The notes below the pieces were generated by a model that was not told the origin of the DNA, ran no database searches, and saw only the letters and a list, made by a program, of their open reading frames with translations. The position numbers were made by a program, and so were the translations under genes. Below, piece after piece: positions 15,978 through 30,719 of a stretch of DNA of 64,000 nucleotides. The first letter of the stretch is position 1. Each line of letters opens with the position of its first letter. The stretch comes from Novosphingobium resinovorum (GTDB lineage Bacteria; Pseudomonadota; Alphaproteobacteria; Sphingomonadales; Sphingomonadaceae), in NCBI RefSeq assembly GCF_001742225.1, contig NZ_CP017075.1, positions 2,728,001-2,792,000 on the forward strand. Direction: 5' to 3'.

Positions 15978-16766
15978 ATGCAGACCACCATCGCCGCCGC
16001 CATCCGCGCCGCCCTGCTCGAGTGCGATCCGCACGCCAAGGTGATGGCCGCCCGCAAGGTCGCGCGCGACTGGCGGCTCGGGCGGCTCGCCTTCGCGTTC
16101 GACGCCGCGATGCCCGAGACCCCCGGCCGTCCGGACGCGCCCGAACTGCTGCCGCCCGGCAAGATGCCCCGGCGCAAGGGAGGGGGCGAACGGGGCCGCA
16201 TCGCCCTGTGGCACGCGCTCGCGCATATCGAGTTCGTGGCGATCGATCTCGCGCTCGACATGGCCGGGCGGTTCGGGGAATCGATGGGGCGGCAGTTCGT
16301 GTCCGACTTTCTCAAGGTCGCGGCGGACGAGGCCATGCACTTTTCCCTGATCGACAGGCATTTGCGCACGCAAGGCAGCCACTATGGCGCCCTGCCCGCC
16401 CATGACGGACTGTGGAGCGCCGCGCACGAGACTCGGGGTGATGTCGGCGGCCGCCTCGCCGTCGTGCCGATGGTGCTGGAAGCCAGGGCGCTGGACGTCA
16501 CCCCAGCGGCGATCGAGCGGGTCCGCACGATGGGCGACGAGCGCGGCGCACGCATCCTTGAACGCATCCTTGACGACGAAATCGCCCACGTTCGATTCGG
16601 CGCAAATCATTTCGCCGACCACGCCGAACGGTTGGGCGACGAGCCCGGAGAGCTGTGGAAATCCTTGGTTTTTCGTTACTTTCACGGCTCCGTTAAACCG
16701 CCGTTCAACGACTCAGCGCGCCTCGCTGCCGGTTTGTCGCGCGATCTGTATACCGCGCTTGCCTGA
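15978..16766 (+). CDS. Ferritin-like DUF455 domain protein
   Basis: A 262-residue all-helical protein of the DUF455 ferritin-like group. The helices carry the paired acidic/His motifs expected for a di-metal site: HALAHIEFVAIDLALD, FLKVAADEAMHFSLIDRHL and LERILDDEIAHVRFG, each with E-x-x-H or an equivalent. Family members are thought to be diiron proteins, but their reaction is not established in general. The ATG at 15978 follows GGGAGAA by 4 nt; the longer frame upstream is translation of repeat E2 and is rejected. It may be read through from glnE-bcp. Confidence 0.85.
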   Translation: MQTTIAAAIRAALLECDPHAKVMAARKVARDWRLGRLAFAFDAAMPETPGRPDAPELLPPGKMPRRKGGGERGRIALWHALAHIEFVAIDLALDMAGRFGESMGRQFVSDFLKVAADEAMHFSLIDRHLRTQGSHYGALPAHDGLWSAAHETRGDVGGRLAVVPMVLEARALDVTPAAIERVRTMGDERGARILERILDDEIAHVRFGANHFADHAERLGDEPGELWKSLVFRYFHGSVKPPFNDSARLAAGLSRDLYTALA

Positions 16767-16908
16767 GTCAAAACTAACGGCATAAGTCACACTCACGAGA
16801 CGGCGGGGGGTTCCGACGATCTCCATACTCCTTGGCGCGACCGGTTTCGGCGTGCTCAAAATATCGCCGCTTTCCTCGGAATGACGGCGGATAAGCAAGG
16901 TATTGCGA

Positions 16909-17598
16909 GTGGTCGTAACGAAATTTTTCGCCAAGTTCCGCGCAGTGACCGGCGTTTTCGTCGCAGCGGGACTGTCCATTGCAGCGCAACCTGCAATGGC
17001 CAACAGCAGCGCTGCCGCTGCCGACATTTCCTCCACCCTGCGCACCAGCCAGGCCGCGAACCAGTCGGTCACCGGCGGTGAGGACGAGCAGTTCAGCCAG
17101 CTGTTCAGCTCCTGGCAGAACTATGAGGAAACCGGCCTTGCCGCCGCCAAGCCCAAGGCAGCCGTCGGCGGCATCGCCACCGTCGCCATCCCCTCGCGCA
17201 ACCCCCTCGCTCAAGAGCGCATGACCAGCACCTTCGGCATGCGCGAACATCCCATTCTCGGCGGCCGCCGCGCCCACAAGGGCGTCGATCTCGCCGCCCC
17301 CACCGGCACCCCGGTCTACGCCACCGCAGACGGCACCGTCAGCCGCGCCTCATGGTTCAGCGGCTACGGCCTGTTCGTCAGCCTCGAGCACGGCGGCGAC
17401 ATGCAGACCCGCTACGGCCACATGTCGCGCCTCAACGTCGCCGACGGCCAGCGCGTCCACAAGGGTGACATCATCGGCTACGTCGGTTCCACCGGCAACT
17501 CGACCGGCCCGCACCTCCACTACGAAGTGCGCGTCGACGGCGAGGCCGTGAACCCGGTTCCCTACATGCAGCAGCCGAGCCTCGCTTCGGCCAACTGA
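16909..17598 (+). CDS. M23-family peptidoglycan endopeptidase, exported
   Basis: A 229-residue LytM-type metallopeptidase. The N-terminal signal peptide ends near IAAQPAMANSS, a low-complexity linker follows, and the catalytic domain begins at MTSTFGMREHPILGG. Zinc ligands are in HKGVDLAAPTG (H-x3-D) and GPHLHYEVR (H-x-H); TRYGHMS carries the catalytic His. It should cut peptide cross-links in peptidoglycan during growth or division. GTG at 16909 is chosen because AAGG lies 8 nt upstream; TTG at 16903 is the other option. A strong terminator follows at 17628. Confidence 0.9.
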   Translation: MVVTKFFAKFRAVTGVFVAAGLSIAAQPAMANSSAAAADISSTLRTSQAANQSVTGGEDEQFSQLFSSWQNYEETGLAAAKPKAAVGGIATVAIPSRNPLAQERMTSTFGMREHPILGGRRAHKGVDLAAPTGTPVYATADGTVSRASWFSGYGLFVSLEHGGDMQTRYGHMSRLNVADGQRVHKGDIIGYVGSTGNSTGPHLHYEVRVDGEAVNPVPYMQQPSLASAN

Positions 17599-17627
17599 CC
17601 AGAGTTTTCCTGTTGAGAGGAGGAAGA

Positions 17628-17655
17628 GGCGGCTCGCAAGGCCGCCTTTTCTTTT
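17628..17655 (+). terminator. Rho-independent terminator after the M23 gene
   Basis: GGCGGC-TCGCAAG-GCCGCC followed by TTTTCTTTT, 29 bp after the stop at 17598. Confidence 0.88.
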
Positions 17656-17688
17656 GCCTGTGTTCCGCGATGCGCCAAAAAAGGGGCC

Positions 17689-17727
17689 AAAAAAATGGGG
17701 CGGTCCGTCACGAGGGTGGGCCGCCCC
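17689..17727 (-). terminator. Rho-independent terminator, minus strand
   Basis: On the minus strand GGGGCGG (17727-17721) pairs with CCGCCCC (17703-17697) and is followed by A and seven T (17695-17689). No protein gene ends here on the minus strand: hemN stops at 18275, beyond a repeat and the opposite-strand PilZ gene. The terminator therefore probably belongs to a non-coding transcript. Confidence 0.75.
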
Positions 17728-17800
17728 TTGAAGTTGGGGAGAAGCGGTTACCGCACCGGGGCTCCGCCGGAGCGGAAGGGGTTGGTGCGGTGGACCGGCA
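17689..17800 (-). ncRNA. Candidate small RNA, possibly Fnr-controlled
   Basis: An approximately 110-nt minus-strand unit between the M23 gene and the PilZ gene. It starts (inferred) near 17800 and has a first hairpin with outer stem ACCGCACC/GGTGCGGT (17791-17784 with 17757-17750) and inner stem GCTCC/GGAGC (17761-17773). A single-stranded linker with CTTCTCCCCAAC follows, then the terminator hairpin with seven T. C-rich loops (AACCCCTTCC, TCTCCCC) could pair with Shine-Dalgarno regions. The Fnr-type palindrome at 17834-17847 is centred about 41 bp upstream of the inferred 5' end, the spacing of Fnr class II activation. The -10 region is weak. Existence and regulation are inference; the structure is seen. 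Confidence 0.5.
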
Positions 17801-17833
17801 AGACGGTCTTCGCACTGGCGGCCGCGTCTCACA

Positions 17834-17847
17834 TTGATCGCGGTCAA
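17834..17847. promoter_or_regulatory. Fnr/FixK-type box between sRNA candidate and PilZ gene
   Basis: TTGATCGCGGTCAA, a 14-bp match to TTGAT-N4-ATCAA with one arm variant (GTCAA). It is 53 bp upstream of the PilZ ATG on one side and about 41 bp from the inferred sRNA start on the other, so it could act on either or both. Confidence 0.6.
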
Positions 17848-17899
17848 TTCCGCGCAAACCCGCTGAATTTCTGCTGCGCGCCGCCGTTCTTGGCCTGAA

Positions 17900-18172
17900 A
17901 TGGACACGTCCCGCTTCCGGCCCACCCCGATCCTGCGCGAGCGCCGCCGCCGGCGCTGCACGCGCTTTGCGCTGATGGATTCACGCGGGGTAGAGATCGC
18001 GGTGATCGTGCGCGACATATCCTCGCGCGGGCTCAGTGCCGCTGCGGCGGGGGAGCCGCCCAGCCTCAATGAAGTGGTGCGCGCCACGCTGGAGGACGGC
18101 CGCGAGGTCTGGGGCCTCGTGCGCTGGCGCGAGGGCAACCTGTTCGGGGTGGAGTTCGATACGCGGGGGTGA
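17900..18172 (+). CDS. PilZ-domain protein
   Basis: A 90-residue single PilZ domain, the usual c-di-GMP-binding module. RERRRRRCTRFALMD has the basic R-rich start (R-x3-R type) and VIVRDISSRGLSAAA gives the D-x-S-x-x-G motif, with the final strand WREGNLFGVEFD. c-di-GMP binding is expected but the arginine spacing is not canonical. It is a stand-alone gene; repeat E3 follows. An Fnr-type box lies upstream, so oxygen control of the gene is possible. Confidence 0.85.
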   Translation: MDTSRFRPTPILRERRRRRCTRFALMDSRGVEIAVIVRDISSRGLSAAAAGEPPSLNEVVRATLEDGREVWGLVRWREGNLFGVEFDTRG

Positions 18173-18181
18173 AACCTTCCG

Positions 18182-18262
18182 TTCGTCATTGCGAGCGTAA
18201 CGAAGCAATCCAGGGCAGTTTGGCGCCGCCCTGGATTGCTTCGCTACGCTCGCAATGACGAA
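18182..18262. repeat. Palindromic intergenic repeat, family E copy 3
   Basis: Arms TTCGTCATTGCGAGCGTAAC and the inverse ending CGCTCGCAATGACGAA around a short loop. It sits between the convergent PilZ gene and hemN. Confidence 0.92.
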
Positions 18263-18274
18263 ATTAGAGCAAGT

Positions 18275-19588
18275 TCACACCGCCGAACTGAAGCGCCGCA
18301 GCGAATCCTTGCGATACGGGTCGAACCGCGCCGCGATCGAGCGCGCGTAAGGCAGTCCGCCCGGCAGCACGACGAGGTCGCCGCCATCGGTCTCGCACAA
18401 TCCGGCATCGAGGTAGGGGCGCAGCAGCGGCCCGGCCTCCTGCCACAAGTCCGCCGCCACAGGCGCGCGGCCCTGGCACAGCAGCGCCTCTATCACCGCG
18501 CCGCGCCGCTGGTCCTCGGCGCTCCGAACGATCCCGCGCGTCGCGGTCAGGCGGTCCTGCGAGAGCATCATGCGATAACGCCCGGTGTTCTTCTCGTTCT
18601 GGACGAGCAGGTCCGGAAAGCCGCCGATCGCCGAGGCCCCCAGCCCCAGCAGGACCGGCGCCTGATCGTCCGTGAAGCCCTGGAAGTTGCGACGAAGGTG
18701 TCCGGTCAGCGTCGCCTGCGCCAGCGGATCGCCGGGCAGGGCGAAATGGTCGAAGCCCACCGCGACATAGCCCCGGTCCAGCAGGAAGGCGTGCCCGTAA
18801 GCCGCCATGGCGAAGCGCGCCTCGGCACCGGGCAGTTCGCTCGCATCGATCTTGCGCTGGCGGGGGATCAGGTGCGGAACGTGGGCATAGCCGAACAGCG
18901 CGATGCGATCGGCGCCGAGCGCGACGGCGCGCTCCAGCGAATCCTTCAGGTGCGCCATGGTCTGGCCGGGCAGCCCGTACATGAGATCGAAGTTCAGCGA
19001 ACCCACGCCCGCGCCGCGCAGCATGGCGACGGCCTGCTCGATCATCGCGGTGGGCTGCACGCGGCCGATCGCCCGCTGCAACGGCTCCGCAAAGGTCTGC
19101 ACGCCGAGGCTGGCACGCGCGATTCCGACCGAGGCGATCACCCCCGCCCACCCGGGGCCAAGGGTGCGCGGGTCCAGTTCGATCGAGATGACCGGGTGCG
19201 AGGTCTCGAACTGCAGCGTCAGCGCATCGACCAGCCGCACGAAATCGATCGGCGAAATGCCGTTGGGACTGCCGCCGCCAAAAGCGATGCGCGTCACCCG
19301 CGCCCCTGCGGGAAGGCGTTCGGCGACGAGATCGATCTCGCGGTGAAGCGCGTCGAGGTAACTCGCTACCCTGTCCCGCCGGTTGGCGACGCTGGTGTTG
19401 CAGCCGCAATACCAGCAGATCTTCTCGCAGAACGGGATGTGGACATAGAGCGATACCTCGCCCTGCGTGCGCTCCAGCGCCTCCTCGTATTGGCCCGCGC
19501 CTATCCCGCCAGCGAACTCGGCGGCGGTGGGGAAGCTGGTGTAGCGCGGCACGGGAATCGCCAGCAGTTCGGGGTGATAGGTCCACAT
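18275..19588 (-). CDS. hemN: Oxygen-independent coproporphyrinogen III oxidase
   Basis: Radical-SAM enzyme that makes protoporphyrinogen IX from coproporphyrinogen III without oxygen, in the cytoplasm. The 437 residues start MWTYHPELLAIPVPRYTSFP. The cluster motif is C-EKI-C-WY-C-GC (CX3CX2C plus an extra Cys), and IAFGGGSPNG is the SAM-binding glycine-rich segment. The C-terminal HemN domain has the expected length. It lies at the end of the cco maturation genes. A good Fnr box (19623-19636) is 35 bp upstream of the start, fitting use under low oxygen when the oxygen-dependent enzyme fails. Confidence 0.96.
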   Translation of the reverse strand: MWTYHPELLAIPVPRYTSFPTAAEFAGGIGAGQYEEALERTQGEVSLYVHIPFCEKICWYCGCNTSVANRRDRVASYLDALHREIDLVAERLPAGARVTRIAFGGGSPNGISPIDFVRLVDALTLQFETSHPVISIELDPRTLGPGWAGVIASVGIARASLGVQTFAEPLQRAIGRVQPTAMIEQAVAMLRGAGVGSLNFDLMYGLPGQTMAHLKDSLERAVALGADRIALFGYAHVPHLIPRQRKIDASELPGAEARFAMAAYGHAFLLDRGYVAVGFDHFALPGDPLAQATLTGHLRRNFQGFTDDQAPVLLGLGASAIGGFPDLLVQNEKNTGRYRMMLSQDRLTATRGIVRSAEDQRRGAVIEALLCQGRAPVAADLWQEAGPLLRPYLDAGLCETDGGDLVVLPGGLPYARSIAARFDPYRKDSLRRFSSAV

Positions 19589-19619
19589 GGCCGCAACTTT
19601 GCCTTATCCCTCCGCGCCG

Positions 19620-19838
19620 TCATTGCGATCGATCAAGCCGCTTGCGTTTGGAATCGGAATGGCAGCCCTTGGCGCAACATGGCCCCTGCGGCGGTCCCGG
19701 AGGTGCGGGGACCGGCACACTCAGCACGCCGCCGCCGCAGGTCATCGCGACGAAGTCACGCGCCTCGACCTGCAGCGGGCCCACCATCGCCGGGACCAGC
19801 GCCAGCGTGCCGAACAGCGCGAGCAGGCGCCGTGTCAT
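19620..19838 (-). CDS. Small Cys-rich exported protein in the cbb3 maturation cluster
   Basis: A 72-residue protein with an N-terminal hydrophobic signal (MTRRLLALFGTLALVPAMVGP), then a short mature part with MTCGGGVLSVPVPAPPGPP and a Cys cluster CCAKGCHSDSKRKR. The CC-x2-GCH arrangement with a Lys/Arg tail could bind a metal such as copper, but no family is recognised. Its ATG overlaps the ccoS stop (ATGA), so it is translated with the cbb3 assembly genes. The Fnr box of hemN lies inside its last codons. A role in copper or haem handling for the oxidase is inference from context. Confidence 0.7.
   Translation of the reverse strand: MTRRLLALFGTLALVPAMVGPLQVEARDFVAMTCGGGVLSVPVPAPPGPPQGPCCAKGCHSDSKRKRLDRSQ
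19623..19636. promoter_or_regulatory. Fnr/FixK-type box upstream of hemN
   Basis: TTGCGATCGATCAA on the plus strand (TTGATCGATCGCAA toward hemN). It is centred about 41 bp from the hemN ATG, so if the site works at the usual -41.5 position the hemN mRNA would be nearly leaderless; another spacing is possible. Confidence 0.65.
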
Positions 19839-19981
19839 GGCGCGTCCTCGTCGATCAGGATGCGGTTGGCGGCGCCGTCCATATCCTCGTACTGGCCCGA
19901 GCGCATCGTCCAGAAGAACGTGCCCAGCGCGCAGAGCCCCATCGCCAGCGAGAGCGGGATCATGAAGCCGAGAATCGTCAT
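19835..19981 (-). CDS. ccoS: cbb3-type oxidase assembly protein CcoS
   Basis: A 48-residue protein MTILGFMIPLSLAMGLCALG... with one membrane helix, then FFWTMRSGQYEDMDGAANRIL. The W-x(n)-GQYEDMDG-x-A-x-RIL motif is diagnostic of CcoS/FixS, needed to insert haem and copper into CcoN. Start at 19981 overlaps the ccoI stop (ATGA), and its own stop overlaps the next small gene the same way. Confidence 0.96.
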   Translation of the reverse strand: MTILGFMIPLSLAMGLCALGTFFWTMRSGQYEDMDGAANRILIDEDAP

Positions 19982-22134
19982 TGCGCTTCCTTCCCTGCCG
20001 CGCGCGCCAGCCGCAGCGAATTGCCGACCACCAGCAGCGAAGAGCCCGACATCGCCAGCGCCGCCACCAGCGGGGTGACGTGGCCGAGGATCGCCAGCGG
20101 CACCGCCAGCACGTTGTAGCCCACCGCCATCGCGAAGTTCTGCCGCACCACCCGCATCGTGGCGCGCGCCACCTTCACCGCCGTCGCCACCGGCATCAGC
20201 CGCTCGCCGACGAAGACGCCGTCGGCCGCCTGCTGCGAGACGTCGCTCGCCCCGCCGGGCGCGAGGCTGACGTGGGCGCCTGCCAGCGCCGGGCCGTCAT
20301 TGAGCCCGTCGCCGACCATCAGCACCTTGTGCCCAAGCCCCGCGCGGCGTTCGAGCAGCGCCAGCTTGTCCGCCGGGCGCATCGCCGCCGTGGCGAACAG
20401 GCCCAGTTTCCGCGCGACGCCGCCGACCGCCTCCACCCGGTCGCCCGAGGCGATCGCGGCGATGAGGCCTTGCGCCTTCAGCGCCGCCAATGTCTCAGTC
20501 ACGTCAGGGCGCAGGCTGTCGGCGAAGGTTATGCGGGTCCGGGTGCCATCGACCAGAAGATCGACGGCGAGAGTGTCCGTCTCCACCTCGGGCCGCAGCA
20601 GCGCGACTCCGGCGCCGTCGCATCGCCCGATCATGCCGGAGCCGGGAGCCTCGCGCACCAGTTCGACGGCTGCGGGCTCCGCGCCTTCGCCGCGCAGCGC
20701 ATGGGCGAGCCCACGGCTCAGCGGATGGCGGCTCGCCTGCGCCAGACCCAGCGCGATGGCGCGGCTGCGCGGGCCGAGCATGGCCAGCGTGACCGGGCGC
20801 GGTTCGCCCAGCGTCAGGGTGCCGGTCTTGTCGAGCAACACTTCGTCCGCCTCGGCCAGCCGCTCCAGCGCCGAGCCGTCCTTGATGAGCAGGCCCCGCC
20901 GCATCAGCGCCCCCGCCGCGACGACTTGCGCCGCCGGAACCGCAAGGCCGAGCGCGCAAGGGCAGGTGATGATGAGGACGGCGGTGGCGATCGTCAGCGC
21001 CTTGTAGACGCTCGCCCCTGCGATCAGCCAACTGCAGAAGCTGAGGAACGCGAGGGTGTGGACGGCGGGCGCATAGAGCCGCGCCGCGCGGTCCGCCACG
21101 CGCACGTAGCGCGAGCGGGACTGGCCCGCCTCGTCCATCAGCCGCGCGATGTCGGCGATGGCGGTGTCCTGCGCGGCGGCGGTGACGCGCACCCGCACCG
21201 GGTTGCCGAGGTTGATCGTGCCCGCGTGGACGAGGTCGCCGGGCACGGCGGGGCGCGGGGCGCTCTCGCCGGTCAGCATCGCGGTGTCGATGGTGGTGCG
21301 GCCTTCGACGACCTCGCCGTCGGCGGCGAGCGATTCGCCTGCCGCCACCAGCATCGTCATGCCGGGGCGCAGCTTGTCGGCCTCGACATAGCGGGCAGTG
21401 CCGTCCTCGTCGATCACTTGCGCGCCCCGCCCCATGCGGCTGAGCAGGGCGGCGATGCCGGAGCGGGCGCGGCCGCGCATCATCGCGTCGAGCGTGCGGC
21501 CCGCGAGCAGGAAGAACAGCAGCATCACCGCGCCGTCGAAGTAGGCGTGCTCGCCCCCGGTCAGCGTTTCGTAGAGGCTCATGCCCGTCGCCAGGATCAC
21601 GCCGATGGAGATCGGCACGTCCATGTTGGTTCGCCGGTACTTCAGCGCCATCCACGCCGAGGCGAAGAACGGGCGGCCCGAATAGACCACCACCGGGATG
21701 CCGATCAGGGCGCTGATCCAGTGGAACATGCCGCGCGTCACCGCGTCGGTGCCCGACCAGACCGAGACCGAGAACAGCATGATGTTCATCATGCCGAAGC
21801 CTGCCACCGCCAGCGCACGGATCAGGCGTTTCGTCTCCACATCGTCGCGGGCGAGCGGGTTGCCGGCGGCGCGTTCGGCCTCGAAGCCGAGTTTGCGCAG
21901 CTCCTCGATCAGCGTCTCGGCATCGAGCGTCCCGGCATGGCTGACGGCGACGCGCTTGGCGGATAGATTCACACGCGCCGAAGCCACGCCGGGGACGAGA
22001 GCGAGGCCGCGCTCGATCTTGCCGATGCAGCCGGCGCAGCGGATGCCGGGGACGGTGAAGCGGCTGTCGATGCTGGGCGCGGTATCGAGTGCGGTTTCGG
22101 CAGGGACCGACGGCGGGGGTGTTATGGCGTTCAT
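19978..22134 (-). CDS. ccoI: Copper-transporting P1B-type ATPase for cbb3 oxidase
   Basis: FixI/CcoI moves copper across the inner membrane for CcoN assembly. The 718 residues contain an N-terminal HMA domain with GIRCAGCIGKIE, eight membrane segments, the TGES phosphatase motif (MLTGESAPRP) and the ion-binding CPC in IITCPCALGLAVP. The phosphorylation site is DKTGTLTLG, and GDGLNDGPAL is the hinge. The ATG at 22134 overlaps the fixH stop (ATGA) and is preferred over one 9 codons upstream. It is in the order ccoG-fixH-ccoI-ccoS typical for cbb3 maturation. Confidence 0.96.
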   Translation of the reverse strand: MNAITPPPSVPAETALDTAPSIDSRFTVPGIRCAGCIGKIERGLALVPGVASARVNLSAKRVAVSHAGTLDAETLIEELRKLGFEAERAAGNPLARDDVETKRLIRALAVAGFGMMNIMLFSVSVWSGTDAVTRGMFHWISALIGIPVVVYSGRPFFASAWMALKYRRTNMDVPISIGVILATGMSLYETLTGGEHAYFDGAVMLLFFLLAGRTLDAMMRGRARSGIAALLSRMGRGAQVIDEDGTARYVEADKLRPGMTMLVAAGESLAADGEVVEGRTTIDTAMLTGESAPRPAVPGDLVHAGTINLGNPVRVRVTAAAQDTAIADIARLMDEAGQSRSRYVRVADRAARLYAPAVHTLAFLSFCSWLIAGASVYKALTIATAVLIITCPCALGLAVPAAQVVAAGALMRRGLLIKDGSALERLAEADEVLLDKTGTLTLGEPRPVTLAMLGPRSRAIALGLAQASRHPLSRGLAHALRGEGAEPAAVELVREAPGSGMIGRCDGAGVALLRPEVETDTLAVDLLVDGTRTRITFADSLRPDVTETLAALKAQGLIAAIASGDRVEAVGGVARKLGLFATAAMRPADKLALLERRAGLGHKVLMVGDGLNDGPALAGAHVSLAPGGASDVSQQAADGVFVGERLMPVATAVKVARATMRVVRQNFAMAVGYNVLAVPLAILGHVTPLVAALAMSGSSLLVVGNSLRLARAAGKEAQ

Positions 22135-22679
22135 GCACCGATCTCCTGTTCGGTGCGCCATTGGCGGCCCTCGGTTTCGACATCGAAGCGCAGGGTCCAG
22201 CGGCCTGCGGGCAGCGGCCGGGTGCTGATCCAGTGCCCGCCCTCGCGGCGGAAGGTGAGTGCGGTGTCGGGGAGGCGGCCGAGGGGGTGGCGGGCGATGG
22301 CGGTGAGCTTGGTGTGGACGGCGGGGGCTTCGACAAGCTCAGCCTGAGCGGGATTTATAGCAGGGCTATTAACCCCACCCCGCTCATCCTGAGCTTGTCG
22401 AAGGATGGATGGCGCGACCTCCAGATCAACCACCACCCTGCCCTCCGCCCCCCGCCGCGCTTCCAGTCGCCACCCGAGCGCCTTCTCCTTCGCCGCCTCA
22501 TCCAGCCAGCGGTTGAAGTCCTGGCTGGCGACGTAGGAGTTCTCCACCACGATCCCGCCGAAGGTGGTGCTGGCGAGCGTCGCCATCGTCACGTTGACTG
22601 CCAGCACCACGCCGAACCCGGCGACGAGGATCGCGGTCATATGCTTTCCGTTGAAAGGCTTGCGGGTCTGCACGGTCAT
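22131..22679 (-). CDS. ccoH: FixH/CcoH family protein with an in-frame repeat insertion
   Basis: FixH is a membrane protein that works with CcoI in copper insertion into cbb3 oxidase. This copy has 182 residues, more than the usual 150 or so. It has an N-terminal membrane helix (HMTAILVAGFGVVLAVNVTM) and GGIVVENSYVASQDFNRWLD, the family signature. The C-terminal half ends HPLGRLPDTALTF ... GRWTLRFDVETEGRQW. Residues about 92-119 (SILRQAQDER ... AELVEAP) are the translation of palindromic repeat A2, 81 bp long, so the frame is kept. The insertion lies in a loop between beta strands. Start 22679 overlaps the ccoG stop (ATGA). Confidence 0.92.
   Translation of the reverse strand: MTVQTRKPFNGKHMTAILVAGFGVVLAVNVTMATLASTTFGGIVVENSYVASQDFNRWLDEAAKEKALGWRLEARRGAEGRVVVDLEVAPSILRQAQDERGGVNSPAINPAQAELVEAPAVHTKLTAIARHPLGRLPDTALTFRREGGHWISTRPLPAGRWTLRFDVETEGRQWRTEQEIGA
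22324..22404. repeat. Family A repeat inserted in the fixH coding region
   Basis: An 81-bp copy with arms GGCTTCGACAAGCTCAGCC and a slightly diverged right arm (CTCATCCTGAGCTTGTCGAAGG). Its length is a multiple of three, it has no stop in the fixH frame, and it adds 27 codons. Confidence 0.9.
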
Positions 22680-26106: not shown

Positions 26107-27750
26107 TCAGTTCGCGAGGATCGGGCGGTCGGCGGCGGGATCGTAGGCGGCATCGCGCAGGGGCTTTTCCTCGCGCAGCTTGCCGAGGATCGTGGCCCAG
26201 ACGTTGACCGTCATGATGACCCCGCCCGCGAGGTAGAGCGCGCCGCCGAAGGCGCGCAGCGCGTACATCGGATGGAGCGCCGCCACGGAGTCTGCGAAGG
26301 AGTTCACGAGGTAGCCGTCGGCCCCGTATTCGCGCCACATCAGGCCTTGGGTGATGCCCGCCACCCACATGCTGGCGGCGTAGAACACGATCCCCAGCGT
26401 CGCGAGCCAGAAGTGCCAGTTCACCATGCGCAGCGAGTAGAGCCGCTCCCGGCCCCACAGGCGCGGCACGAGGTAGTAGATCGCGCCGAAGGTGATCATC
26501 CCGTTCCAGCCCAGCGCGCCGGAGTGGACGTGGCCGATGGTCCAGTCGGTATAGTGCGAGAGCGAGTTGACGCTCTTGATGCTCATCACCGGGCCTTCGA
26601 AGGTGCTCATGCCGTAGAAGGCGAGCGCCATCACCATCATGCGGATGATCGGATCGGTGCGGACCTTGTCCCAGGCGCCGTTGAGCGTCATCAGGCCGTT
26701 GATCATGCCGCCCCAGCTCGGCATCCACAGCATGATCGAGAACACCATGCCCAGCGTCTGCGCCCAGTCGGGCAGCGCGGTGTAGTGCAGGTGATGCGGC
26801 CCCGCCCAGATGTAGAGGAAGATCAGCGACCAGAAGTGGATGATCGACAGTCGGTAGGAATAGACCGGTCGCTCGGCCTGCTTGGGCACGAAGTAGTACA
26901 TCATGGCCAGGAAGCCGGCGGTCAGGAAGAAGCCCACCGCGTTGTGGCCGTACCACCACTGCACCAGCGCCCCCTGCACGCCCGCGAACAGCGGGTAGCT
27001 CTTGGAGCCCAGCAGGCTGACCGGCAGGTCGAGGTTGTTGACCACGTGCAGCATCGCCACGGTGACGATGAATGCGAGGTAGAACCAGTTGGCGACGTAG
27101 ATGTGCGGCTCGCTGCGCCTGACGATCGTGCCGACGAAGACCGCGAGGTAGCAGACCCACACGATGGTCAGCCACCAGTCGACGTACCATTCGGGCTCGG
27201 CGTATTCCTTGCCCTCGCTGATGCCGAGGAGGTAGCCGGTGGCGGCCAGCACGATGAACAGCTGGTAGCCCCAGAACACGAAGCGGGCGAGACCGGGAAA
27301 GGCCAGCCGCGCGCGGCAGGTGCGCTGGACGACGTAGAAGCTCGTCGCGATCAGGGCATTGCCGCCGAACGCGAAGATCACCGCCGAGGTGTGCAGCGGG
27401 CGGACCCGGCCGAAGTTGAGGTAGGGCTCCAGATTGAGCCAGGGCCAGGTCAGCTGCGCGGCGATGAACACGCCCGCGAGGAAGCCCGCCATGCCCCAGA
27501 ACACCGTGGCGATCATGCCCCAGCGGATCGGGTCGTCGTCATAGCGCCCCTGATCGGGAAACCGCAGGACGCCGCGGGCGATGCCGTCGTAGTCGGCGCC
27601 GCGCAAGGTGAACCACAAGGCGGTCATCGCCGCGATGGCGACGATCCCCATGTGGATGGCGAAGCCCTGATCCACCGCCAGCGCGGAGGCCATCACGGCA
27701 AGGAAGAGCACGGCAAGCCACACGCCTGCCCGCGCCAGCACCGAAACCAT
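26107..27750 (-). CDS. ccoN: cbb3 oxidase catalytic subunit CcoN
   Basis: Catalytic subunit of the high-affinity terminal oxidase; reduces oxygen to water and pumps protons. The 547 residues form 12 or more helices. Haem ligands are [17 protein letters not shown] and [11 protein letters not shown]; the CuB ligands are WYGHNAVGF and [14 protein letters not shown]. It heads the ccoNOQP operon. A perfect Fnr-type box (27818-27831) is centred 74 bp upstream of the ATG, so induction at low oxygen by the Fnr protein at 30018-30719 is likely. Confidence 0.97.
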
Positions 27751-27817: not shown

Positions 27818-27831
27818 TTGACGGGGATCAA
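27818..27831. promoter_or_regulatory. Fnr/FixK-type box upstream of ccoN
   Basis: TTGACGGGGATCAA. Fits TTGAC-N4-ATCAA, the FixK/FnrL consensus, 68 bp before the ccoN start. The 420-bp gap to ompW (27751-28171) otherwise holds repeat C2 and a second box near ompW. Confidence 0.75.
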
Positions 27832-30017: not shown

Positions 30018-30719
30018 TTACCCTGCCTCGGCGACCAGCGTGTCGAAATCGAGGATCGTCACTTCGCGGCGCGAGGGCAGGTCGATCACGCCCTCGTTCT
30101 TGAGCCGGGTGAACTGGCGGCTGACGGTCTCGATCGTCAGGCCCAGCACGTCGGCGATCTGCTGGCGCGAGAACGGCAGGGTCAGGATTCGCCGCCCCGG
30201 ATGCTCGAAATCGATCCGGCAGCCGGCGCCGCCGAGCCGTTCGGTCATCTCGACGAGGAAGCTCGCCATCTTCTCCGCCGCCGACTTGCGGCCGAGCAGC
30301 AACATCCAGCGGCGCGTGCGGTCCAGTTCGCCCAGCGTGCGTTCGAGCAGCTTGTGCTCCAGCGCCGGATGCTCGCGCGCGAAGGCGTCGAAGTCGCGGC
30401 GGGAGAACACGCAGACGCTGGCGTCGGTCAGCGCGGTGACGCCGTGCCCGGTGGTGCCGCCGAACGGGCGTCCGATGAAGTCGGAAGGATAGACCACGCC
30501 GACGATCTGCTCGCGCCCGTCCTCGGTGTTGGTGGAGAGCTTGAGGACGCCGTCGATGACATTGGCGACGAGGACCGAATCCTCGCCCTCCCAGATGATC
30601 GATTCCCCGGCGGTCAGCTTGCGCGTGCGCCCAATGGCGTTGAGCGCGTTCAGTTCGCCGGCGTCGAGCGCGGCACAGATCGCCCGGTTGCGGACGACGC
30701 AAAGATCACAGCTGGACAT
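30018..30719 (-). CDS. fnr: Fnr-type oxygen-sensing transcription regulator
   Basis: A 233-residue Crp/Fnr protein. It has the four cysteines expected for an oxygen-labile [4Fe-4S] cluster: Cys4, Cys7 and Cys15 in MSSCDLCVVRNRAIC, and Cys103 in DASVCVFSRRDF. The cNMP-like beta barrel (GESIIWEGEDSVLVANVIDG) is followed by the HTH around SRQQIADVLGLTIETVSRQF. The recognition helix E-x-x-S-R is the one that reads TTGAT-type sites. When the cluster is intact under low oxygen the dimer binds DNA. Likely targets in this window are the boxes before ccoN, hemN, ompW and at 17834. Called fnrL or fixK in relatives. Confidence 0.95.
   Translation of the reverse strand: MSSCDLCVVRNRAICAALDAGELNALNAIGRTRKLTAGESIIWEGEDSVLVANVIDGVLKLSTNTEDGREQIVGVVYPSDFIGRPFGGTTGHGVTALTDASVCVFSRRDFDAFAREHPALEHKLLERTLGELDRTRRWMLLLGRKSAAEKMASFLVEMTERLGGAGCRIDFEHPGRRILTLPFSRQQIADVLGLTIETVSRQFTRLKNEGVIDLPSRREVTILDFDTLVAEAG

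Follow-up and report, generated by a model that had tools for sequence, protein, structure and literature searches.

On the minus strand of a 64,000-nucleotide stretch of the genome of Novosphingobium resinovorum, a soil bacterium, lies a predicted small RNA (sRNA) gene, placed between an M23 peptidase gene and a PilZ gene and near genes of low-oxygen respiration (Table 1). The whole stretch (positions 2728001-2792000 of contig C1) is called the window here, and positions refer to it unless another genome is named. An Fnr box, a two-level hairpin, a C-rich single strand and a terminator follow one another in the direction of the minus strand, and every part that a first-pass annotation of this DNA had named was found on that strand where the annotation had put it. 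The M23 peptidase of the window is 99% identical to its counterpart in N. resinovorum VKM B-1172 (L033). Only two zero-mismatch TTGATNNNNRTCAA sites occur in the 64 kb, the box of the sRNA and the one before ccoN. The FnrL-like regulator scores 242.9 bits with the FnrL model NF045989, below the cut-off of 300; among proteins of known structure, FixK2 and FNR are the closest to it in sequence. Separately, a long, near-perfect and REP-like inverted repeat (CGTCATTGCGAGCG...CGCTCGCAATGACG) lies between PilZ and hemN (18186-18260).

Table 1. Features of the predicted sRNA locus and of its surroundings in the window.
Feature	Position	Strand	Remarks
M23 peptidase gene	16903-17598	+	next gene behind the terminator, convergent with the sRNA
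Predicted sRNA, about 111 nt	17689..17799	-	start predicted from Fnr box and conserved -11 A
Intrinsic terminator	17689..17727	-	7-bp outer stem 17727-17721 / 17703-17697; seven T 17695-17689
Linker UUCUCCCCAACUUCAA	17743-17728	-	C-rich
Single-stranded seed UUCUCCCCAACU	17732..17743	-	anti-Shine-Dalgarno-like; P(unpaired) 0.98-1.0 in the window RNA
5' stem-loop, covarying helix	17744..17799	-	contains the two-level hairpin 17750-17791
Two-level hairpin	outer arms 17791-17784 / 17757-17750; inner arms 17777-17772 / 17767-17762	-	
Weak -10 element GAAGAC	17806..17811	-	second base A (17810, -11) kept in 83/87 loci
Conserved G, box position 16	17832	-	87/87 loci, outside the search pattern
Fnr box TTGACCGCGATCAA	17834..17847	-	centre at -41.5 from the predicted start
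PilZ gene	17900-18172	+	divergent from the sRNA
hemN, O2-independent coproporphyrinogen III oxidase	18275..19588	-	TIGR00538, 337.7 bits, above cut-off
Heavy-metal P-type ATPase	19978-22161	-	
ccoN	within 26110-27750	-	TIGR00780 match
Second Fnr box of the window	27818..27831	-	upstream of ccoN
FnrL/FixK-type regulator	30018..30719	-	N-terminal CxxC...C motif, ETVSR helix

The 118 nt of the minus strand from 17806 to 17689 fold at -49.3 kcal/mol, compared with a mean of -36.4 for shuffled sequences (z = -4.2; 0 of 200 shuffles equally good), and the fold contains the two-level hairpin, the unpaired C-rich linker and the terminator. The plus strand folds too, less exceptionally (z = -2.5; 4 of 200 shuffles equally good). 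The sRNA terminator is absent from the output of an automatic terminator scan of 16000-20000, probably because its loop exceeds the 8-nt limit of the tool.

We searched 195 Novosphingobium genomes with a strict pattern, TTGAYNNNNRTCAA-N65-95-TTCTCCCC, that is, an Fnr box, 65-95 nt and the linker motif, with the reversed pattern as control. The strict pattern is found in 121 of the 195 genomes (99 of the 149 that are of good quality) and the reversed control in none (0/195), which makes a chance origin of the arrangement very unlikely. In 120 of the 121 matching genomes it is present as a single copy, and the exact pattern is absent from the other 74 genomes of the genus. The first relatives had come from synteny with the M23 gene, with the element in 7 of the 54 loci scanned (L033-L086 of 80 kept); in each of the seven (L033, L036, L037, L039, L042, L048 and L069) the box is followed, roughly 100 nt further along, by CTTCTCCC and then a terminator, and there is one mismatch in the L069 box. 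In one genus genome (L004) the element lies at a different place with other neighbour genes.

The family-wide set comprised 298 genomes, six of the genus and 292 others. A first pattern matched five of the six genus members and two of the 292 others (control, 1), while a second one, with A at position 38, TCTCCCNNNCT and a spacing range that excludes our own genome, matched three of the six and one of the 292 (control, 0). Judged by these patterns, the predicted element is rare outside Novosphingobium. The sixth genus member (G172) has the element with a shorter spacing (L128). By eye, the outsiders G271 and G008 have no terminator and look coding. In a third outsider (G065, locus L358), possibly a variant family member from another genus, the box and the A at position 38 are joined by CUUCUCCC and by a terminator; L149 (G189), again from another genus, looks similar with a longer spacing, has the box, the A at position 38, a UCUCCC motif and a terminator, and is a possible member. 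A whole-sequence DNA search of the 298 genomes found one good relative (G288) besides our own genome; the remaining 34 matching genomes had E >= 8e-5, the two inspected showing terminators behind other genes. A covariance model, R1, matched 119 of the 298 genomes at E <= 0.1, with scores above 100 bits only for our own genome and G288 (next best, 42.0); the 109.6 bits at the window arise by construction, the window sequence being part of the model. Only five of 30 R1 loci (L126, L127, L128, L143 and L149) have an Fnr box near the match, and hence R1 is of little use beyond the genus. A second type of locus, with UUCUCCCCAACU and a terminator, no visible Fnr box and a position behind another gene, was seen in two genomes (L333 in G339, L347 in G445).

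For the comparison of promoters and RNAs, 94 of the 121 matching loci were read, of which 90 pass a terminator script, 87 remain after removal of near-duplicates and 86 remain without the window. A terminator directly behind the motif is thus recorded by script in 90 of 94 loci, compared with 2 of 8 occurrences of TTCTCCCC without a box in the same loci. By eye, two of the four failures (L177 and L215) show a hairpin whose T tract is short. In the other two (L159 and L219) the Fnr box stands, by eye, before the coding start of a small gene that resembles feoA and apparently is feoA.

In the 87 compared loci the box and TTCTCCCC are present by selection. Outside the search pattern, and counted gap-free from the box, a G at box position 16 is kept in 87 of 87 loci and an A at position 38 in 83; A-leaning positions follow position 38, and most of the stretch from the box to this A varies freely. 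The distance from the box centre to the A is 30.5 bp in 83 of the 87. If position 38 is taken as -11, transcription would start at position 49, which places the centre of the box at -41.5, where the Fnr box of a class II promoter is centred (about -41.5). The first-pass annotation had centred the box about 41 bp from its predicted 5' end and called the -10 weak; the centre predicted from the conserved -11 A agrees with the former, and the latter fits an element in which strong conservation is limited to the -11 A (83/87). Its proposal of control by Fnr is likewise supported by the comparison, with an Fnr-type activator at a class II site (121/195 genomes, box centre at -41.5). The sRNA box matches the Sphingopyxis Fnr consensus TTGAc/t-N4-g/aTCAA, and a study of Sphingopyxis granuli reports the same box consensus and the -41.5 spacing in most Fnr targets (PMC7713065).

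Across the 87 loci the predicted RNA has a length of 77-110 nt (median 95). The four unsearched bases after TTCTCCCC are A or G (69/17), A or C (58/29), C (84) and T (85), so that the motif has a conserved extension, [A/G][A/C]CU, that is gap-free from the motif and outside the search pattern. The motif and these four bases have a median P(unpaired) of 0.96, compared with 0.36 for the rest of the RNA, and exceed 0.8 in 71 of the 87 loci; some members are largely paired there (lowest, 0.18). The sequence of the 5' stem-loop differs strongly between species (about 42 of the 87 inspected). Comparative folding, which the first-pass annotation had proposed for the interval, was run, and the 5' helix shows compensatory changes in both subtypes. 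In an alignment of nine sequences of the window type, 8 of 20 pairs have changed on both sides, and there are 24 compensatory cells compared with 9.7 after shuffling and 0-4 in slid controls, a result favoured by the derivation of the structure from the same nine-sequence alignment. A second subtype (36 sequences) has 65 two-sided cells compared with 28.6 after shuffling and 7-39 in slid controls; pairs with a two-sided change number 7 there, which does not exceed the controls (5.4 shuffled, with 74 of 500 shuffles as high, and 11 at slide -3). RNAalifold, given a MAFFT alignment of 26 sequences of the window type, recovered the 5' helix only in part, apparently owing to misalignment of its arms. 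Overall, the comparative data strongly support the predicted gene: the layout of its promoter, the helix and the exposed motif, and the terminator. A stand-alone RNA gene, as first proposed from the window, is supported by the recurrence in 121 of 195 genomes and by the terminator in 90 of 94 loci.

The surroundings of the element were surveyed in 86 related loci, mostly of 3-5 kb (shortest, 1.7 kb). An fnr relative or hemN is near the sRNA in 75 of them (fnr in 41, hemN in 34), and the two occur together in none of the fetched loci; 2 of the 86 have ccoN and ompW without fnr or hemN, and 9 have none of the four. Comparison of these loci at the sequence level shows a link of the predicted gene to Fnr and cbb3 genes. 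It also bears on whether the region is a leader or attenuator whose terminator acts as the switch for a neighbouring gene (in many relatives, fnr). In 40 of the 86 loci the sRNA is followed on its own strand by fnr; the distance between the terminator region and fnr has a median of 38 nt (range 20-1793), and Fnr autoregulation with attenuation would be conceivable there. We nevertheless regard a leader as unlikely. In the 14 fnr-adjacent loci inspected, fnr starts, by eye, at its own ATG past the terminator, which gives the RNA the appearance of a unit of its own, and several have a TGATAA-like sequence before fnr that resembles a separate promoter. The sRNA converges on hemN in 18 of the 86 loci. 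In the window, the next gene (M23 peptidase) is convergent and there is no close same-strand gene downstream, which makes a leader role unlikely there.

The orientation of the box raises a different point. The box is almost a palindrome, its end lies 52 nt from the PilZ start, and the plus strand folds well too, so the box might serve the divergent PilZ gene, with the hairpins merely a bidirectional terminator region. In the plus direction, however, both conserved bases are missing, with T in place of G16 and C in place of A38. The UUCUCCCC motif belongs to the minus strand, as does the T tract that follows the stem, and just 14 of the 86 related loci (3-5 kb) contain PilZ while the element is retained. 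This makes a PilZ promoter very improbable.

Here, we propose that the locus is likely to be an oxygen-controlled, Fnr-activated gene whose product, an sRNA of about 110 nt, carries an anti-Shine-Dalgarno seed and acts in trans. At low oxygen, an Fnr-type [4Fe-4S] regulator would bind the box at -41.5 and switch on a class II promoter whose -10 is weak; the probable activator is the FnrL-like protein, the gene of which lies at a distance of 12 kb (30018-30719). RNA polymerase would then make an RNA of about 110 nt ending at the terminator, in which the 5' stem-loop and the terminator would keep the linker UUCUCCCCAACU single-stranded. The linker would pair, probably with Hfq, with G-rich, GGGGAGAA-like Shine-Dalgarno regions, and mRNAs unwanted at low oxygen would lose translation, as reported for the alpha-r8 sRNAs SisA and SuhB. 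Transcription, Fnr dependence in vivo, the use of Hfq, repression and the targets are thus what we infer for this gene. An Hfq gene is present in our own genome, as a single 226-aa frame (L374, positions 936138-936566 of contig C1) that has two Hfq domains in tandem.

The first-pass annotation had suggested target prediction against such leaders, and Shine-Dalgarno-type sites were sought; no recurrent target emerged and TonB receptors were not enriched. Among 12-nt complements before ATG in the 195 genus genomes, no annotated target gene recurs. Full complements (AGKTGGGGAGAA-N1-14-ATG) occur in 22 of the 195 genomes (reversed control, 1). Of 26 such places, 7 were flagged as antisense of the sRNA itself, a site common to three genomes (L336, L339 and L342) precedes only a 29-codon frame, and a site in two genomes (L333 and L347) is the antisense of the other sRNA-like locus. 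In our own genome, GGGGAGAA before RTG gives 55 matches compared with 14 for the reversed control, and 53 of the 55 were inspected in fetched loci. The frames behind these sites include three TonB receptors, which coincide with plug-domain matches; two short-chain dehydrogenases (SDR) and hslU were recognised among them by eye only. Plug-domain matches of TonB receptors number 144 in this genome. By duplex energy, the start regions of 30 of the 144 receptors were no better complements than those of 36 window ORFs (p = 0.61), a weak control set that includes doubtful ORFs; the 5-mer GGGAG is present in 8 of the 30 receptor start regions compared with 2 of the 36 control ORFs. The starts of fnr, hemN, ccoN, PilZ and M23 pair poorly with the sRNA (-4.8 to -8.9 kcal/mol).

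Sphingomonads degrade many pollutants, and many of them live where oxygen fluctuates. A single-copy, Fnr-box-driven RNA with a 12-nt exposed motif would offer an entry to oxygen-dependent post-transcriptional control in these bacteria. By sequence comparison it is a conserved, Fnr-box-driven sRNA gene for which we found no existing name. No description of this RNA was found in the literature searched, which excludes most subscription papers and preprints, and the main text of the study of Fnr in sphingomonads (PMC7713065) has 0 matches for 'sRNA' and 'small RNA' and 2 for suhB.

Among known RNAs, the alpha-r8 family (Rfam RF00519, suhB) comes nearest. It comprises MmgR of Sinorhizobium, SisA-D of Caulobacter and SuhB of Sphingopyxis, the last placed here by its name. 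A scan of 4,227 Rfam families gave no match at gathering thresholds across the window. Up to E = 10 there are 13 matches at the sRNA stretch, the best-scoring being RF00519 with 18.9 bits (E = 0.082), below its gathering score of 41; the other twelve belong to unrelated families. Eight of 20 relatives have an RF00519 match, each overlapping the sRNA, with 22.5-34.7 bits (E 0.002-2.6), so that the best also falls short of 41 bits. The other twelve have no match up to E = 5, and none was found elsewhere in the 20 loci. RF00519 also scores 24.5-25.9 bits at the pattern-match places in G300, G302 and G312, and weak matches (E <= 10) are found in 13 of 14 control genomes as well. Above the cut-off, our own genome has four RF00519 matches, all at other places, and such matches are present in 39 of the 41 genomes searched. 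As a separate observation on a relative, its sRNA (L168, 1460-1553, minus strand) scores 36.9 bits with the model of the Xanthomonadaceae sRNA Xoo2 (cut-off 45).

In layout the sRNA resembles alpha-r8 RNAs: it is short, with a 5' hairpin, a single-stranded, anti-Shine-Dalgarno-like CUCCC...ACU linker and an intrinsic terminator. It differs in the linker, which is UUCUCCCC[A/G][A/C]CU as opposed to a core CCUCUCCC followed by an A-rich ACU in our own canonical suhB copies, in its other 5' hairpins (the suhB copies have GCCUUUCAGGC) and in its class II Fnr promoter, no Fnr box being found in the 130 nt inspected upstream of those copies. Canonical suhB copies in our own genome (L121, L122 and L123) and elsewhere (L116, L120 and L130) have by eye an upstream motif like TTTCGCACTTGCACAA, perhaps the site of a common regulator.

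The shared layout and the sub-threshold RF00519 matches at the sRNA (in the window, in 8 of 20 relatives and in G300, G302 and G312) would also suit an ordinary alpha-r8 (suhB/MmgR) member that has a chance Fnr box in its promoter and no special job. We consider this possible but the less favoured reading: no scored locus reached 41 bits, 12 of the 20 relatives gave nothing up to E = 5, weak matches also occur in 13 of 14 control genomes, and the four above-cut-off copies of the genome differ in the 5' hairpin and lack an Fnr box within 130 nt. With Fnr-activated control as the preferred reading, the sRNA would, by inference, work like an alpha-r8 RNA while not being a member by curated score. 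The alpha-r8 group is a nearer relative than FnrS, though below its cut-off, and the evidence is compatible both with distant homology and with convergence of the seed. Caulobacter SisA is reported to repress targets including TonB receptors through an anti-Shine-Dalgarno 10-mer, with compensatory mutations, and SisA-D are reported to be without a common promoter motif (PMC12559287); mmgR is reported to be under NtrC and AniA (PMC8401924). A tentative scenario, which we would put at somewhat less than an even chance, is that an Fnr-controlled alpha-r8 branch evolved in Novosphingobium. This sibling with a similar seed would be tied to fnr-cco-hemN and would compete with suhB copies under other signals for overlapping mRNAs, joining oxygen and carbon signals at translation. 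Whatever its origin, the predicted sRNA offers a natural experiment on how a given type of sRNA seed comes under a new signal next to its likely paralogs.

The first-pass annotation had instead likened the RNA to FnrS, a kinship that the Rfam scan does not bear out. FnrS, which we take to have a model among the families scanned, is not among the 13 matches up to E = 10, and nothing in the window matches any family at gathering. FnrS also differs from the sRNA in layout. What the two would have in common is that FnrS of E. coli and relatives is an Fnr-activated sRNA of 100-120 nt, and that both would act in trans at low oxygen. The similar Fnr control and size (for FnrS, PMC8139620) would fit a true homolog, but the other lineage, the difference in layout and the lack of an Rfam match make one exceedingly improbable. 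By its description, PcrZ of Rhodobacter sphaeroides is a further parallel, an alphaproteobacterial sRNA linked to oxygen and FnrL, which PMC8139620 lists under PrrA and FnrL, with FnrL marked '(indirect?)'.
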